Positions 1,698-28,300 of a stretch of DNA of 38,616 nt are shown here, piece after piece. The number at the start of each line of letters is the position of its first letter. Positions within the stretch are counted from its first letter, which is position 1. The notes below the pieces were generated by a model. The model did not search any database. It worked only from the letters and a program-made list of their open reading frames with translations, and was not told the DNA's origin. Source of the DNA: an uncultured Planctomycetaceae bacterium (GTDB taxonomy: Bacteria > Planctomycetota > Planctomycetia > Planctomycetales > Planctomycetaceae); assembly GCA_903896675.1 (NCBI GenBank), contig CAITYU010000021.1, positions 1 through 38,616 on the forward strand, given 5' to 3'. Position numbers and translations under genes: made by a program.

Positions 1698-1726
1698 CAG
1701 CCGCTGGGCTCGCCAGGCCCGGCGGC
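1698..1726. terminator. Hairpin between convergent genes, probable bidirectional terminator
   Basis: An 11-bp stem (1698-1708 with 1716-1726, one G-U pair) closes a seven-base loop. It lies 10 bp after the stop of the propeller gene and 53 bp after the end of the minus-strand coiled-coil gene. No real T-run follows in either direction, so intrinsic termination is plausible rather than proven. Confidence 0.5.
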
Positions 1727-1779
1727 TGATTGCATGTTATGGTGAATTGTCAAAGATCAGTGTTCCACAACGGTGACGA

Positions 1780-2490
1780 TCACCACTCCCGCATCTGTTG
1801 CTCGATGCGTTCGCTGCGTTCGGCCAGTTCGAGGCTCTGCAGTGAATTGGCCTTCATCGTCCGGCGAAGTTCGTCGGCTTCCTTCAGCAGGTCTTTTGCG
1901 ATCTGCTTTCGCGACGCTTTCGTGACCTCGTTGGTCTCTTTATCAGCTGCTGCTGACTGCTGCTCGGCCCTGCTTTGTAAGTAAGCTAGGCGACTCTGCA
2001 GACCCTGATTCTCCTGGACGAGTCTCTGCCCTTCTCGACTGAGCTCCCGCAACTGCTGCCACAGCGATTCATCGTCGCAGGTATCGAACAAACGCGACCG
2101 AGCGGTGGACGCATCGTTCATGCCATCTTTTATCTGAGCGAGCTCACCATGCAGCGGCCCAGTCACTTCACTGTGATGTGCTTCCGCTTCTTCCAGGACT
2201 TTGTCAGCAGCGGCGATCTCGCGATTCAGCCGATCACGCTCCTTCTCCAGCGACGGCACCATGGCGACCTGAGCTTTCCACGTCATTCGCTGTTCGTACA
2301 GCCTGACCGCCTTCTGCAGGTCCTCCAGGGATTTGCCAGCGGCTTCCAGTGTGGCTTCGACCGAAGCTGGATCCGGTTCTTTGCCACCGGCCGCGATCTG
2401 CTTCACCAGATCACGATAGGACTGAACCTTCTGCTGCTGGCGTTCCTTCTGGCGACCAGCAATCTTCGCAATCAACTGAGCAACATTCAT
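1780..2490 (-). CDS. Coiled-coil protein of the accessory block
   Basis: A 236-residue protein rich in Glu, Gln, Lys, Arg, Ala and Leu with heptad-like spacing over most of its length, so it should be largely alpha-helical coiled coil. The start (MNVAQLIAKIAG) is fixed by an ATGA overlap with the stop of the upstream metallopeptidase gene and by a GGAG upstream; the frame is also open 11 codons further up. No signal peptide or membrane helix is seen. Coupling to the metallopeptidase suggests the two act together, perhaps as scaffold and enzyme. I do not recognise the family. Structural or tethering roles in a mobile element are possible but unproven. Confidence 0.75.
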   Translation of the reverse strand: MNVAQLIAKIAGRQKERQQQKVQSYRDLVKQIAAGGKEPDPASVEATLEAAGKSLEDLQKAVRLYEQRMTWKAQVAMVPSLEKERDRLNREIAAADKVLEEAEAHHSEVTGPLHGELAQIKDGMNDASTARSRLFDTCDDESLWQQLRELSREGQRLVQENQGLQSRLAYLQSRAEQQSAAADKETNEVTKASRKQIAKDLLKEADELRRTMKANSLQSLELAERSERIEQQMREW

Positions 2491-3251
2491 GACAACACTC
2501 CATTCAGGGTTTGCGAACAACATTCGAGGTAACGACTGACATCATTGAGCCACAGGGCGATGAAGGCTTCGGGCGGCGGCGATCGTGAGATCTCGGCAAA
2601 TGGGATCTCCAGCAGATCCGCAGGTTCGTCCCCGAACGCTTCGATGTAGCGATGGGCATGTGACAGGCAGTATCGCCGGCCAGCGCACAGCAGATTGGGA
2701 ATCGTCTCCACGCCGGCGAGTGCTGCCCGGTAATGCAGGTGCAGGGCGATCCGGATGAACTGATCTTCATGGCCGAAGTACGGAGTCGGCAGCGGCCGAG
2801 ATTCATGCCGTGCCGCATTGGCGATCACCATGGTTTCGAATTCGATGCGGTCGTCCGATGGCAGCGACTGCAGATCGACCGGCATCGGCCGATCAAGGAT
2901 GTGGGCCAGTTCATGGAGCACAATGCTCATTGCCACGATGTCCACATCTTCCGGGAAGTACTCGTCGACGATGAAAACATCGTTCAGGACCATGCACGGG
3001 CCACGGCCGTGCCAGCGATCGCCGATGACGGATCGGAGGTTTAGGTCCAGATTCGGCGTGGTGTAGCCATCGGAGAAGTTCTCTCGGCCCATGACATCAG
3101 CGACTTCGGAATGCAGCAGGATGTACAGCGGCAAACCGGTGAGGTCGCGACCGGCCACGGTCCGGCAGAGTGCGGTAGCCCGGGCGGCGAAATCGGGCCA
3201 CAGATCGCCCACGGTGGCCACTGACGCGTTGTGTTCGGAAACTCGGGACAT
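2487..3251 (-). CDS. Putative zinc metallopeptidase (HELAH motif)
   Basis: A 254-residue protein. H113-E-L-A-H117 sits in a hydrophobic helix (SIVLHELAHILD), the classic zincin signature in which the two His bind Zn and Glu is the catalytic base. A third ligand may come from the acidic stretch about 15-20 residues later (DDRIEFE), but this is not certain. There is no signal peptide, so it is probably cytoplasmic. The start at 3251 (MSRVSEH) is preferred over an upstream extension that runs into the repeat-rich intergenic region. Its stop overlaps the start of the coiled-coil gene (ATGA). The family is not one I can name; it is a zincin by motif only. Confidence 0.75.
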   Translation of the reverse strand: MSRVSEHNASVATVGDLWPDFAARATALCRTVAGRDLTGLPLYILLHSEVADVMGRENFSDGYTTPNLDLNLRSVIGDRWHGRGPCMVLNDVFIVDEYFPEDVDIVAMSIVLHELAHILDRPMPVDLQSLPSDDRIEFETMVIANAARHESRPLPTPYFGHEDQFIRIALHLHYRAALAGVETIPNLLCAGRRYCLSHAHRYIEAFGDEPADLLEIPFAEISRSPPPEAFIALWLNDVSRYLECCSQTLNGVLS

Positions 3252-3371
3252 TGGTGGTCTTTCGGACTTCGGACAAACAAAACAAACTGTGCTCAATCTG
3301 GCGACTGTTCCCCGTGGGTATGGGGAGAGGGGACGGGCCGGGGAGTACCTATCGCTCAGTGAATATTGCTT

Positions 3372-3469
3372 CGACCTTGCCACCTCGCCACACGTCCCTT
3401 GCCTTACTCTGGTGGCGACATGGATCGAACTGGCAAGATGGCCTGGCCTGCCTCACCCCCATCTTGCCA
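3372..3469. repeat. Left cluster of 11-bp iteron-like repeats
   Basis: Copies of CCAYSTYGCCA lie at 3380-3390 (+) and 3459-3469 (+), and in reverse at 3413-3423 and 3431-3441, the latter two exactly 18 bp apart. A 10-of-11 copy at 3372-3382 overlaps the first by three bases. Confidence 0.85.
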
Positions 3470-3547
3470 CTTACTCCCTATAAAAATCCATATAGCCATA
3501 CAAAGCGCTTAAGAGAGAGAGAGTTTGTGTGTGTGGTATGGAGGAGA
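3470..3547. other. AT-rich and simple-repeat core between repeat clusters
   Basis: The stretch 3470-3505 is markedly AT-rich (CCCTATAAAAATCCATATAG at its centre), unlike the GC-rich surroundings. It is followed by an AG run (3511-3523) and a TG run (3524-3536). Position and composition suit a DNA-unwinding element if the flanking repeats are iterons. Confidence 0.5.
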
Positions 3548-3630
3548 CCATCTTGCCAATTGGGTCCATGTCGCCAATTCAAGTATGTAAGAGCCACTGG
3601 CAAGGTGGTGGCGAGGTGGTGGCAACATGG
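3548..3630. repeat. Right cluster of 11-bp iteron-like repeats, three in perfect tandem
   Basis: Forward copies of CCAYSTYGCCA at 3548-3558 and 3566-3576 are 18 bp apart, the same spacing as in the left cluster. Reverse copies follow head to tail with no gap at 3598-3608, 3609-3619 and 3620-3630, each 11 bp (TGGCRASRTGG). A further TGGCAA starts at 3628. Confidence 0.85.
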
Positions 3631-3647
3631 CAACGCCCCCGCTGTGC

Positions 3648-5252
3648 TCAAAGGTCGGGATAATCCAACGTGTCTTCATGTTCAGGTGGCTGGTCGGCTG
3701 CTGGTGTGAGCCGCCATAGCCACGGACCATCGAATGATTCCTTGCGGGCTGGGATGCCGATTGCTTTGTACGCTCTACGGAGCGTTCGATCAGTGAAGCC
3801 GACCTGCTGACCAGCTTCGATCACTTCATTGGCTGCCAGTGTTTTATCGGTCAGGTGTTCACGCAGCCACGCGATCGCTTCCCTTCGTTCGCTGCCTCGC
3901 TGCGAGGGCTTCTGATTGGCTGTCTCAGCAGCGAAGGCATCGTCGGCATGCATCTTCACAGGATTGAATTCCCAGGCGACCCGACCATCATCGATGCGAT
4001 AGGCAAGTCCATCCGGATCTTTGGCAAGGTTCAATTTGGCCGGCAGGAGCAGTCGTCGCTCAGGGTTGTCAGGATCTTTGGTGATCGCCCAGACGGCTCG
4101 TGCGGCCGCTGCGAAGGCCAGGCTGCCCATGGCTCGATAGACCGCCTTGGTACCGCCAGTCTTTGCCAGGTGTGTCACGGTCAGGATCGCCACGTGGAAA
4201 CGACTGGCAAGGTCCGCCAGCGGAGCCAGCATGCCACGGACTTCGCCGTTGTTGTGGGAGTCGACTTTGCCCAGAAAGCCGGCGATCGGGTCGATCACGA
4301 TCAGGCGAACATCGCGATGTGTGGTAAGCACTTCCTCAAGCCGTGGAATGTCAGATTCGAGGGAAAACAACCTTCGTTTGTTCAGCATCGAGACGCCTTC
4401 CACTGCCAGGATCTTAGTGTCATCGGCATTAGCTTTGTCCAGCCGTGGAGCGATCGTGTCAGCGAGGTCATCTTCACAGTTCATCAGAATCACTTTGCCG
4501 GCAGGCTGTCGCTGAAGCGGATTATCGGGCCAGCGTTCACCCCGAGAGACTCGGGCGGCGATGTCCAGTGTGACAAAAGATTTGCCGAGGCCCGGGTCGC
4601 CGGCCAGCAGTGTCAGCTTGCCGAGCGGGATCCGACCGGGCCAGAGCCAGTCAAGCTGTTCGCGGGTCACGCCGTTGAGCATTTGCAGAATGACATGTGG
4701 TTTTGCTGGATCACTCCTCGCGATCACCTTCTTCGCTTCTTTGAGCATCCGACGCTGTTTTGCAGCGAACAGATGTTCCGGGGCTTGGGGGACGGTCTGG
4801 CGATTGGGCTGCAATTGCTCTGATGCCCATGCAACGATCGTGCTGATCCATGGCCGGATAATGTTGGTCGCGATCTGCTGATCGCTGAAGCCTTTCTTGC
4901 TCAGCTCCTCCCAGCACTGACGGACGAACTCGAACCCGTGTACTCGGCCACGAGAGCGAGAGGCTGGAATCATGTGATTTTGCTTGTACGCGATCTGCTC
5001 GCTCTCAAGTTCTGGTCTCTGGAAGTACACAGACGACGGAACGAGAACTTCCGCTTGTTCGCGAACTTTCCGTCGCTCGCGATGAGCAGCTTCGATTGCT
5101 CCGTAGTTGATGCGTTTCCACGAGCCGCCCTCCTGAGCGGATCGCAGGAACGCTTCACGGTAAGCCAGCTCAGCTTCCACCTGCTCTGGAGTGTGATTCC
5201 AGCGCAGGCCGTCTTCGTAGAACTGAACAAGGTTGTCAGGGAGATGTGGCAT
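3648..5252 (-). CDS. RepA-like RecA-fold ATPase/helicase (AAA_25 type) with C-terminal winged helix
   Basis: A 534-residue ATPase. Walker A G-D-P-G-L-G-K-S is at 218-225, Walker B RLIVID ends at D321, and a motif VTHLAKT (sensor-like) is near 359-365, as in hexameric RepA/DnaB-type helicases and AAA_25 proteins of plasmids and phages. Residues 1-200 are a helical, charged region that may bind DNA or partners. The C-terminal part (about 450-515, TLAANEV...TDRTLRRAYKAIGI) looks like a winged helix. ATG 5252 is preferred to a TTG at 5279 because the latter overlaps the upstream gene. The gene lies between two small genes and the repeat array, as expected for a replication protein beside its origin. 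A general regulatory RecA-like ATPase is the alternative. Confidence 0.8.
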   Translation of the reverse strand: MPHLPDNLVQFYEDGLRWNHTPEQVEAELAYREAFLRSAQEGGSWKRINYGAIEAAHRERRKVREQAEVLVPSSVYFQRPELESEQIAYKQNHMIPASRSRGRVHGFEFVRQCWEELSKKGFSDQQIATNIIRPWISTIVAWASEQLQPNRQTVPQAPEHLFAAKQRRMLKEAKKVIARSDPAKPHVILQMLNGVTREQLDWLWPGRIPLGKLTLLAGDPGLGKSFVTLDIAARVSRGERWPDNPLQRQPAGKVILMNCEDDLADTIAPRLDKANADDTKILAVEGVSMLNKRRLFSLESDIPRLEEVLTTHRDVRLIVIDPIAGFLGKVDSHNNGEVRGMLAPLADLASRFHVAILTVTHLAKTGGTKAVYRAMGSLAFAAAARAVWAITKDPDNPERRLLLPAKLNLAKDPDGLAYRIDDGRVAWEFNPVKMHADDAFAAETANQKPSQRGSERREAIAWLREHLTDKTLAANEVIEAGQQVGFTDRTLRRAYKAIGIPARKESFDGPWLWRLTPAADQPPEHEDTLDYPDL

Positions 5253-5257
5253 TGTGG

Positions 5258-5491
5258 TTATCGCTGCAGAGTGATCCAACCGTACAAATGATGAAACTTC
5301 AGCAGGCGTTGACGCCGGGCCTGATTCAGGGGTGATTGAATCTCGGACGCCTGCAGCCCGAAGGATTCAGCGACGATCTCGATCGTCACGGGACGCAGCC
5401 CGTTGTGCAGAGTGCTGACGCGAGCAGCGACCTGGCTGGCAGACGGGATCATGTTTCCGTAGTTGTAATCGCCGGTGATGTACTGGGGCAT
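5258..5491 (-). CDS. Small winged-helix-like protein
   Basis: A 77-residue protein starting at an ATG with AGGAG eight bases upstream; the frame is open much further up but that extension is Arg-rich and looks like a shadow of the neighbouring gene. The segment VTIEIVAESFGLQASEIQ, followed by LNQARRQRLL and then KFHHLYGWITL, has the helix-turn-helix-wing pattern of small DNA-binding proteins. It overlaps the preceding gene by 43 bp and ends 5 bp before the ATPase start, so all three are translated from one message. It may bind the element's DNA as a regulator or replication accessory. The family is not identified. Confidence 0.65.
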   Translation of the reverse strand: MPQYITGDYNYGNMIPSASQVAARVSTLHNGLRPVTIEIVAESFGLQASEIQSPLNQARRQRLLKFHHLYGWITLQR

Positions 5492-5661
5492 GCGGCGTCT
5501 CCTTTTGCGTTGGCGTCTGTGATCGCCGTGTTGACTGTCTGAGCTTCGCTTTCGTCGGCTGCGAGCTTTTCTGCCACGTCGATATAAACAGCAGCCCATG
5601 CATCGCTGAATGCGTCCGGTGCTGTGGCGATCAAATGGGGGTCTGCGGTCGTCGTCGTCAT
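5449..5661 (-). CDS. Small protein of unknown function, first gene of the accessory operon
   Basis: A 70-residue Thr/Ala-rich, acidic protein (starts MTTTTADPHL) with GAGG upstream of the ATG. A helical middle section contains FSDAWAAVYIDVAEKLAADE. No known motif was recognised. The last 43 bp overlap the next gene in another frame. This gene is short and rests on its ribosome-binding site and position, so it could be spurious. Confidence 0.5.
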   Translation of the reverse strand: MTTTTADPHLIATAPDAFSDAWAAVYIDVAEKLAADESEAQTVNTAITDANAKGDAACPSTSPAITTTET

Positions 5662-5882
5662 GCCACAATCCTCAGTTGAAAACGGTACAGGTTGGTGTCC
5701 GCCGGCTGCCGGGCGGGGAACTGTGCGGGTTAACCTGACTGTCGCACGGAAAACGTGACAGCAGGGGATGCTTTGCCTGAAACGCGATCTGCGGTTATTG
5801 TGAGGCACCGCAGGCCGTCAGAATGGCCTGTCTGCACCGCTCAGCAATCCCGCCGCCGTCATCGCTCCGCTGGAATTCGCCT
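5662..5882. promoter_or_regulatory. Divergent intergenic region with candidate operators
   Basis: This 221-bp gap lies between the accessory operon (minus) and the large redox gene (plus), so it must carry promoters for both or for the accessory operon at least. It holds the 8-bp palindrome GGTTAACC (5728-5735) and an imperfect inverted repeat, CTGTC at 5739-5743 with GACAG at 5757-5761. No confident -35/-10 pair was identified. Confidence 0.3.
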
Positions 5883-25344: not shown

Positions 25345-28300
25345 ATGACTCCCCGATTCTTCAGCGTTTCTGCGTATTTTGCAGTTCTGTTTGCTGCGAC
25401 TGCTGCCACTGCGACCCCGCAGGAACCGTCTGCCGAACAGGCTCAGTTTTTCAACGAAAAGATCCTGCCCCTGCTGGAGTCTCGCTGCTTTGAATGCCAC
25501 GGCGACGGTGACGTCGAAGGCGGGTTGCGGGCGACATCCAGGGAATCGCTGCTGCAGGGCGGAGAAACTGGCCCGGCGATTGTGCCCGGGGATCCGGATC
25601 GCAGCCTGCTGATTCAGGCTGTTCGCTACGAAACTCTGCAGATGCCGCCGCGCGACAAGCTGCCTGATGAGGAAGTCACGCTGCTGGTCAAATGGGTGGC
25701 TGATGGTGCTGTGTGGCCTGCCGCCTCCTCGGCAACAGCTCCGGCTGCCATGACCCGTACTCAGTTTCCGCTGCAGGAACGCATCCACGCTCACTGGTCA
25801 TGGAAGCCCATTCAGCGTCCGTCGATTCCGCAGGTGCAACGGGCCGACTGGCCGCGTGCGGATGCCGACCGCTTCATTCTGTCTCAACTGGAAGCTGCCG
25901 GGCTGGCTCCGGCTGCCGATGCCGATCGTCGCGTGCTGCTGCGACGTCTGTGTTTTGATCTGACGGGGCTGCCCCCTGCACCCGAGCTGCTGCAGAAGGT
26001 CATGGCCGATCCTGCTGAAACCCCCGTGGTGCTGGAAAAGGTTGTCGATCAGTTGCTAGCCAGTCCGCAGTTCGGTGAACGCTGGGCACGCCACTGGCTG
26101 GATCTCGTACGCTACGCCGAAACACTCGGCCACGAATTTGATTTTCCGCTGCCGCATGCATGGCGGTATCGGGATTATGTGATTCGTGCCCTGAACGCTG
26201 ACGTGCCATGGGACCAGTTCGTGCGGGAACATCTGGCCGGCGACCTGCTGCCGAAGCCACGCCGTCATGCAGAGCAGGGATTCAACGAATCAATCATCGC
26301 CACAGGTTTCTGGTACCTGTGCGAAGACAAACACGCTCCGGTGGATGTGAAGCTTGAAGAAGCCCTCAGAATTGACAATCAGATCGATGTTTTCGGTAAG
26401 GCATTCCTCGGGCTGACCATCGCCTGTGCGCGCTGCCACGACCACAAATTTGATGCCATTACCACCGAAGATTACTATGCATTGTCGGGTTTTCTGCAGA
26501 GTTCACGGCGGCGAGTTGAGTGGCTGGATTCCGGCAATCGAATTCAGTCGCTGGTGCATGATCTCGATCAGCAGCGTCTGCAGGCTGACCGTCTGACGAC
26601 AGCAGCTCTGCAGATCTGGAATCCTGCGGCTGTCAGTCGACTGGTGGCAGCGACACTCGATCCGCAGCAGCCACAGGAAGCGCCTGTCACACCTGAATTG
26701 GTGCAGAGGCTGCGTCAGCAGTTGCAGGATCCGGCTCTGCCTGCTGCGGGTGCCTTGCTGTCGCTGCCCGCTGTCCTGCAGCAGAAGTCGCAGGACCTCT
26801 CGGATGCTCAGGCTGTGGCGACGTGGCATGCAGCCGTGCAGCAGGTACGTCAGCAGCAAAGCGTACCTGCTCCGCAGACTCCACAGGACGTGCAGGTGTT
26901 TGCCGATCTGCGTCAGGGCCTGCCATCGGGCTGGTTCACGTGGGGCGAGGCCTTCTCAGTTTCGTCAGCGGCGCAGGCTGCGGGGGGGGCGGCGCCGGGT
27001 GGCTGGCAGTGGCAGCCGGCCGGGTTGCAGGCGGTCACCGGTCAGGACGTCTCATCAGCAACTGTGTCACCACGGCTGCGGGGTGCTTTGCATTCACCCG
27101 AGTGGGACCTGCAGCACAGTGAAATCCTGATTCTGGCCGCCGGTCAGAATGCTCGTCTGCGACTGGTTGTTGACGGTTACGTCATGAACGAGTTCACCGA
27201 GCTGCTGTTTGGCGGGCTGCGTCAATCCATCAATACGGACGGACGGTTTCAGTGGATTCGAATTGCCGGAGATCTGGGGCGATATGCGGGGCATCGCTGT
27301 CACCTTGAATTTCTGGACGAGGGTGATGGCTGGTTTGCAGTGCGCGAGGTTCGGCTGGTGGCCCCGGGAGTGAATCCCGGGGTGCCTCTGGAACTCTCGG
27401 CAGCGGCCGATCAGGCAGTGACACTGGCCTCTGATCGTGCACAAATGCTGCAGGCATGGGCGGACGCTGCAGTCCGTGATCCGGCCTGGCCGGCGACAGC
27501 GGTGTCGCTGGGACTGGCTGGTGACCCGGGCGCTGGCGAATTGGCGACGGTGCTGAATCGCTGGCGGGAACTTGCGGGTGTTGATCCGGGTGGCGAGCCA
27601 GTGCTGGTGATGTGCGATGGGACGGGTGAGGACGAGCGAATTTTTGTGCGTGGCAATCATCGCAGTCTGGGCAAGCTGGCCTCACGACGGCTGTTGACAG
27701 CGCTGGATGCCGGGGCACCGCTCAACAATCCGGCGGCCAGTGGGCGACTGGAGCTCGCCGAGCGAGTGCTGGCGGACAGCAACCCATATCCGGCTCGAGT
27801 GGTTGTCAATCGGGTTTGGCAGCACTTGTTCGGACGCGGTCTGGTGGGCAGTTCAGATAATTTTGGAGTGCTGGGCGAGAAGCCGACGCATCCCGAGCTG
27901 CTGGATCTGCTGGCCGATGAGTTCCGACAGGATGGCTGGTCACTGAAGCGGCTGATTCGTCGCCTTGTGCTGACTCGCACTTATGCTCAAAGCAGCGTTC
28001 GCAATCCCGCCGCCGAAGAACGTGATCCGGCGAATCTGCTGTGGCATCGGGCGGAGGTCCGGCGGCTGGAAAGTGAAGCAATGCGAGACACGATCCTGAC
28101 GATTTCCGGTCGACTGGATGCCGCGATGCACGGCCCGCCGGTACCCGTGTATCTGACTGCGTTCATGCAGGGACGCGGGCGTCCAGGGCAGTCCGGTCCG
28201 CTGGACGGAGCCGGTCGTCGCAGCGTCTATCAGGCGGTGAATCGCAATTTTCTTAACCCGTTTATGGTGACATTTGACACACCTCAGCCAGCCTCGGCAG

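Follow-up and report, generated by a model that had tools for sequence, protein, structure and literature searches.

The repeat array at positions 3372-3630 of the window (the whole stretch of 38,616 nucleotides analysed, from an uncultured Planctomycetaceae bacterium) is, with a probability of about 0.7, a replication origin that acts in cis for a small integrated mobile element, and the 534-aa RecA-type helicase encoded just upstream of the array would serve as its initiator. The array is clustered, mirror-symmetric, and under selection, and arrays recur at the 3′ end of genes encoding this helicase family. In the proposed mechanism, a C-terminal winged helix of the helicase would bind the TGGC(A/G)A(C/G)(A/G)TGG sites of the two mirror-image clusters, and this binding would bring helicase rings onto the DNA at both flanks of an AT-rich core. 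The core would then melt, allowing replication to start, most simply in both directions.

The repeat array and its conservation

The motif CCAYSTYGCCA occurs in nine exact copies within 251 bp of the window, in both orientations, along with one degenerate copy that matches at 10 of 11 positions. All of these lie where an earlier note on this DNA had placed them. The copies fall into two clusters (3372-3469 and 3548-3630) that mirror one another across the AT-rich core. The first cluster harbors the degenerate copy CGACCTTGCCA (3372-3382, + strand), CCACCTCGCCA (3380-3390, +), CCATGTCGCCA (3413-3423, −), and two copies of CCATCTTGCCA (3431-3441, −, and 3459-3469, +). The second harbors CCATCTTGCCA (3548-3558, +), CCATGTCGCCA (3566-3576, +), and a perfect 11-bp tandem of three copies on the − strand, namely CCACCTTGCCA (3598-3608), CCACCTCGCCA (3609-3619), and CCATGTTGCCA (3620-3630). 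This tandem and the 18-bp spacings within the pairs 3413/3431 and 3548/3566 were correctly described before. Missing from that description is a large imperfect palindrome that spans the clusters, in which 3413-3444 and 3545-3576 are 88% complementary.

The core (3473-3547) carries AG and TG runs and is a putative DNA-unwinding element. Its previously proposed AT-richness is borne out by a GC content of 41% versus 60% for the window, and only 71 of 38,546 70-bp segments have lower GC (the lowest 0.2%). The equivalent core has 41% GC in L010 and 42% in L011, the two close copies of the locus used for comparison. As in iteron origins, clustered near-identical short repeats thus lie in non-coding DNA with an AT-rich region between them; no DnaA boxes are found within the array. 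The set had also been described as bracketed by CTGTGCTCAA. Both copies are present (3287 and 3642), but the bracket is probably incidental, since the two nearest relatives lack the copy on the ATPase side. Between the array and the following gene, ATAGGTACTCCC (3341-3352), which occurs once in the genome, is conserved together with the sequence after it in L010 and partly in L017.

The clustering is specific to this locus. A single other exact copy of the motif occurs in the window, at 26816, and the 5.89-Mb genome contains 67 matches compared with 52 for a reversed control pattern. At the genome-wide rate, 0.003 copies would be expected per 260 bp. The earlier note had set its reading against a motif scattered through the genome without linkage to the ATPase; no second cluster exists in the 5.89-Mb genome, where the remaining matches are scattered singly at the background rate.

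The array location is identical in L010 and L011. The copies at 3380, 3413, 3431, 3548, and 3609 are conserved in both. The copy at 3459 is exact in L011 and has one terminal change in L010, that at 3566 is conserved in L010 and has one change in L011, and that at 3598 has one change in each, while the third tandem copy (3620) is specific to the window and absent from both relatives. The non-coding array is 90% (L010) and 89% (L011) identical to the window, compared with 80% and 79% for the ATPase gene and 58% and 56% for its third codon positions. Because a non-coding stretch evolves more slowly than the adjoining ATPase gene, the array is under selection. The expectation that it would accompany close homologues of the ATPase is likewise upheld, as it is present and strongly conserved in both of the copies with a sequenced 3′ flank; a third close copy, cut off by a contig end, is left out of the array comparison.

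The integrated element and its helicase

Close copies of the ATPase (80-84% identical) are found in three other planctomycete genomes in unrelated surroundings. L010 and L011 have approximately 4.5 kb in common, and the DNA on both sides is unrelated. The left-hand 0.9 kb of these two copies is missing from the window, where other sequence takes its place. The part shared with these copies ends at 1698-1700, and homology with a genus relative that is free of the element starts at 5706; therefore, the unit in the window is placed at approximately 4 kb (1698-5705). Its end harbors a GC-rich hairpin (1698-1745) that is common to L010, L011, and a remnant in another genome, G120. In the genus relative that has the right flank without the element, nothing corresponds to the left flank (1-1697), and thus no clean two-sided empty site was obtained. 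The element has changed location, supporting the earlier reading of the array as the origin of an integrated replicon, with origin activity as the probable function.

Several further features surround the element and its sister copies. The start of the far end is the same in the sister elements of three genomes (TGCGWTTCGTTTGAACC; L010:7040-7200, L011:7050-7200, L012:7045-7190) and falls inside the apparent 3′ part of a truncated ORF. A 371-aa gene (572-1687) flanks the element in the window, and the element-end remnant in G120 (contig C19; L143:409-912) lies beside a gene that resembles the end of this 371-aa gene. Positions 8-140 of the window are a dispersed repeat with copies in contigs C34, C141, and C175 of the same genome and in genome G127.

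Four genes of the element lie on the − strand. The 77-aa protein encoded upstream of the ATPase (5258-5491) has counterparts in the closest copies alone. Next after the array comes a gene (2487-3251) for a 254-aa protein with a metallopeptidase-like HELAH motif and no Pfam match, and the last gene of the element (1780-2523) encodes a 247-aa protein whose Pfam matches are weak and below the cutoff. Among the element proteins scanned, neither an integrase nor PICI regulatory or packaging genes are recognised, and a crude scan for recombinase motifs gives mostly unconvincing matches, which were set aside.

The 534-aa ATPase (3648-5252) is single-copy in its genome. It matches AAA_25 (E = 2e-36) and, weakly, KaiC, with no match to any other Pfam family, and it also matches phage primase/helicase families. 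It has the Walker A motif and the RecA-like fold of AAA_25 RecA-type helicases. A Prim-Pol domain, present in the homologues from plasmid pCG2 and locus L043, is absent by Pfam from the window protein, which has its own 180-aa N-terminus. The AlphaFold model has a mean pLDDT of 73, with mostly 79-87 across the C-terminal unit. Its core is DnaB/RepA-like (target TM 0.67 to 1nlf at 15% sequence identity), and residues 449-514 adopt the helix-strand-helix-helix-strand-strand order of a winged helix.

On the basis of this model and of the linkage between gene and array, the C-terminal winged helix probably binds the array sites. The constant partner of the arrays across loci is the ATPase, whereas the 77-aa protein is limited to the closest copies and the next gene varies. 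How far homology reaches into the winged-helix region shows no association with the presence of an array (Fisher p = 0.27). Because this reach fails to predict arrays, the winged helix remains a candidate binder. One locus (L042:8692-10098) encodes a 66% identical ATPase that ends before the winged helix; no array comes after it, and the next gene is serine-recombinase-like. This locus is the single case of joint loss of winged helix and array, with no general association across loci.

Arrays at homologous loci

Repeats were sought at approximately 190 homologous loci in 400 bp across the ATPase stop codon (60 bp before and 340 bp after). Stretches upstream, within the coding sequence, and at a distance served as controls. 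An array was defined as at least five copies of a 9-mer, with one mismatch allowed and both strands counted, exceeding any of 20 shuffles. In genomes of the family, arrays lie at the ATPase 3′ end at 26/79 loci, versus 4/81, 2/90, and 0/64 control stretches. The corresponding counts for viral contigs and plasmids are 26/85 versus 4/84, 2/88, and 4/73, and planctomycetes outside the family have arrays at 5 of 22 loci versus 2 of 63 controls. The rate in control stretches is 0-5%. Both counts and controls include a few near-duplicate loci, and a few of the array matches are of low complexity or lie partly inside coding extensions. The relatives on viral contigs were obtained with an alignment query; scans of these contigs with the window ATPase alone or the L049 protein alone return no relative. 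In the genomes of three relatives (G076, G143, and G146), AAA_25 homologues number seven or eight per genome, and several of these genes have a repeat array of their own on the 3′ side.

The array consensus varies from element to element. A core, TGnnCAnSTT, occurs in at least three copies at 18/79 family loci versus 0/235 control stretches and at 7/85 viral or plasmid loci versus 0/245; it was picked after inspection of these two sets. In the hold-out set of planctomycetes outside the family, the core is strong at 2 of 22 loci (10 and 11 copies) and at none of 63 controls, a result that backs a shared core in a suggestive rather than conclusive manner. The TGGCRASRTGG of the window looks like a variant of this core that is one base shorter. 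Window-like sites, e.g., TGACGAACATGG and TGACAAAGATGG, occur 3′ of an AAA family ATPase on the Streptomyces plasmid NZ_CP058979.1 (L128:5500-5640), and the circular plasmid pCG2 encodes a Prim-Pol and AAA_25 protein followed by a both-strand array 3′ of the gene. No mapped pCG2 origin is found in the literature searched.

Judged from sequence, similar arrays follow ATPase homologues in other phyla, and their occurrence after related helicases in mobile elements, phage contigs, and plasmids makes them a candidate for a widespread origin type. The odds are evenly balanced that they constitute an unnamed, cross-phylum origin class, in which AAA_25 helicases that carry a winged helix at the C-terminus, some with Prim-Pol and some lacking it, would use their own 3′ iterons, often with a TGnnCAnCTT core and element-specific flanks. 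Approximately two thirds of the homologues have no array by the 9-mer test; this counts against the origin reading, as do the absence of a recognised integrase, which makes excision to a replicating circle hypothetical, the lack of a DnaA box in the array, and the missing association between winged-helix reach and arrays.

Alternative readings and related systems

The array could instead be an operator or enhancer, i.e., a set of repressor or activator sites for the 77-aa protein or the ATPase that controls the ATPase operon or the HELAH gene and has no origin function. The array does lie directly upstream of the 254-aa gene, and the sister copies have a second, related pair of facing repeats approximately 700 bp upstream of the ATPase start (L010:7293, L011:7294, and L012:7291 and 7311), a possible autoregulatory site that is absent from the window. 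Such regulation is nevertheless unlikely: arrays repeatedly lie 3′ of the ATPase with different next genes in different elements, more distant array-bearing loci lack the 77-aa protein, and ten sites in 260 bp around an AT-rich core exceed what an operator is generally known to need. A partition or recombination site, in the form of a centromere-like site or a recombination enhancer, would also consist of repeated protein-binding sites, as such elements generally do. This is the least probable of the readings, as no ParA, ParB, or recombinase match is found among the element proteins scanned, the array lies away from the element ends, and its constant partner is a helicase-like ATPase.

The repeats could also be a by-product of a palindrome that acts as a long RNA stem-loop or as a cruciform in DNA, as in pRN1, whose 100-nt stem-loop origin lies on the 3′ side of the gene for a winged-helix Prim-Pol helicase (PMC4234260). 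The array folds far better than its shuffles (z of −6.5 as RNA and −4.6 as DNA). However, the differences among the three copies mostly break predicted pairs, the covariation term is unfavourable, and 1 of 81 pairs is changed on both sides and kept, in a comparison of three sequences only. No Rfam match is found for the array, and at several distant loci the arrays are in a single orientation, making a palindrome impossible there. A structural role is thus improbable, and an RNA or cruciform as the conserved feature is rejected: the fold is strong, but covariation does not support it and the sequence itself is conserved. In pRN1-type origins it is the structure rather than the sequence that is conserved, which is not the pattern of the array in these three sequences.

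For the preferred reading, a replication origin used by the adjacent helicase, the closest layout is that of the SaPI/PICI origins. In PICI origins, an AT-rich region has iterons to either side (PMC6092414), and SaPI Rep uses its C-terminal domain to read iterons that directly follow its own gene (PMC7581432). The window shares the two iteron sets, the AT-rich region between them, and the position just 3′ of a proposed initiator-helicase gene. In contrast, the SaPI Reps are assigned to the DUF927 or Primase_Cterm/D5 types (PMC7581432), while the window helicase is a RecA-type AAA_25 protein, and the window element has no recognised integrase or PICI regulatory or packaging genes. In its sequence organisation, the element follows the PICI layout, but its helicase differs and no PICI genes are recognised in it. 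The earlier view of an unrecognised type is thereby narrowed: the layout is of a known kind, but the helicase is of the RecA/RepA type (AAA_25).

The other systems are more distant. The SCCmec protein Cch2 uses its C-terminal domain to bind short repeats that lie in the intergenic region just after its own helicase gene (PMC7581432). The position of this putative origin is the same; however, the Cch2 helicase is of the D5 type and its site consists of three 5-nt direct repeats, compared with ten 11-bp sites in both orientations and an AT-rich core in the window. The pRN1 origin is also 3′ of a replication gene (ORF904), whose product combines a helicase with a winged helix at the C-terminus (PMC4234260), but that helicase is of the SF3 type with Prim-Pol and the stem-loop origin has no iterons. 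The Prim-Pol helicase replication proteins of mobile elements (pCG2; PrimPol-PV1 supergroup) have an AAA_25 domain homologous to the window ATPase, and pCG2 has a both-strand array at the 3′ side; the window protein differs in its N-terminus, which has no Prim-Pol match. The available portion of PMC5862659 suggests winged helices as origin readers in Prim-Pol helicase proteins of mobile elements and does not mention 3′ iteron arrays. RSF1010 RepA and the DnaB helicases have the RecA-like fold of the ATPase core, but sequence identity is low and in the window protein a winged helix follows the core in the same chain.

No prior description of 3′ iterons with AAA_25 helicases or in planctomycetes is found in the literature searched, which covers few subscription papers. 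If the origin reading is correct, the origins of many integrated elements, phages, and plasmids with AAA_25 helicases would be predictable just 3′ of the helicase gene. Element-specific iterons paired with a compact winged helix would provide a system for the co-evolution of initiator and origin specificity, and the element could yield a replicon for planctomycete genetic tools.
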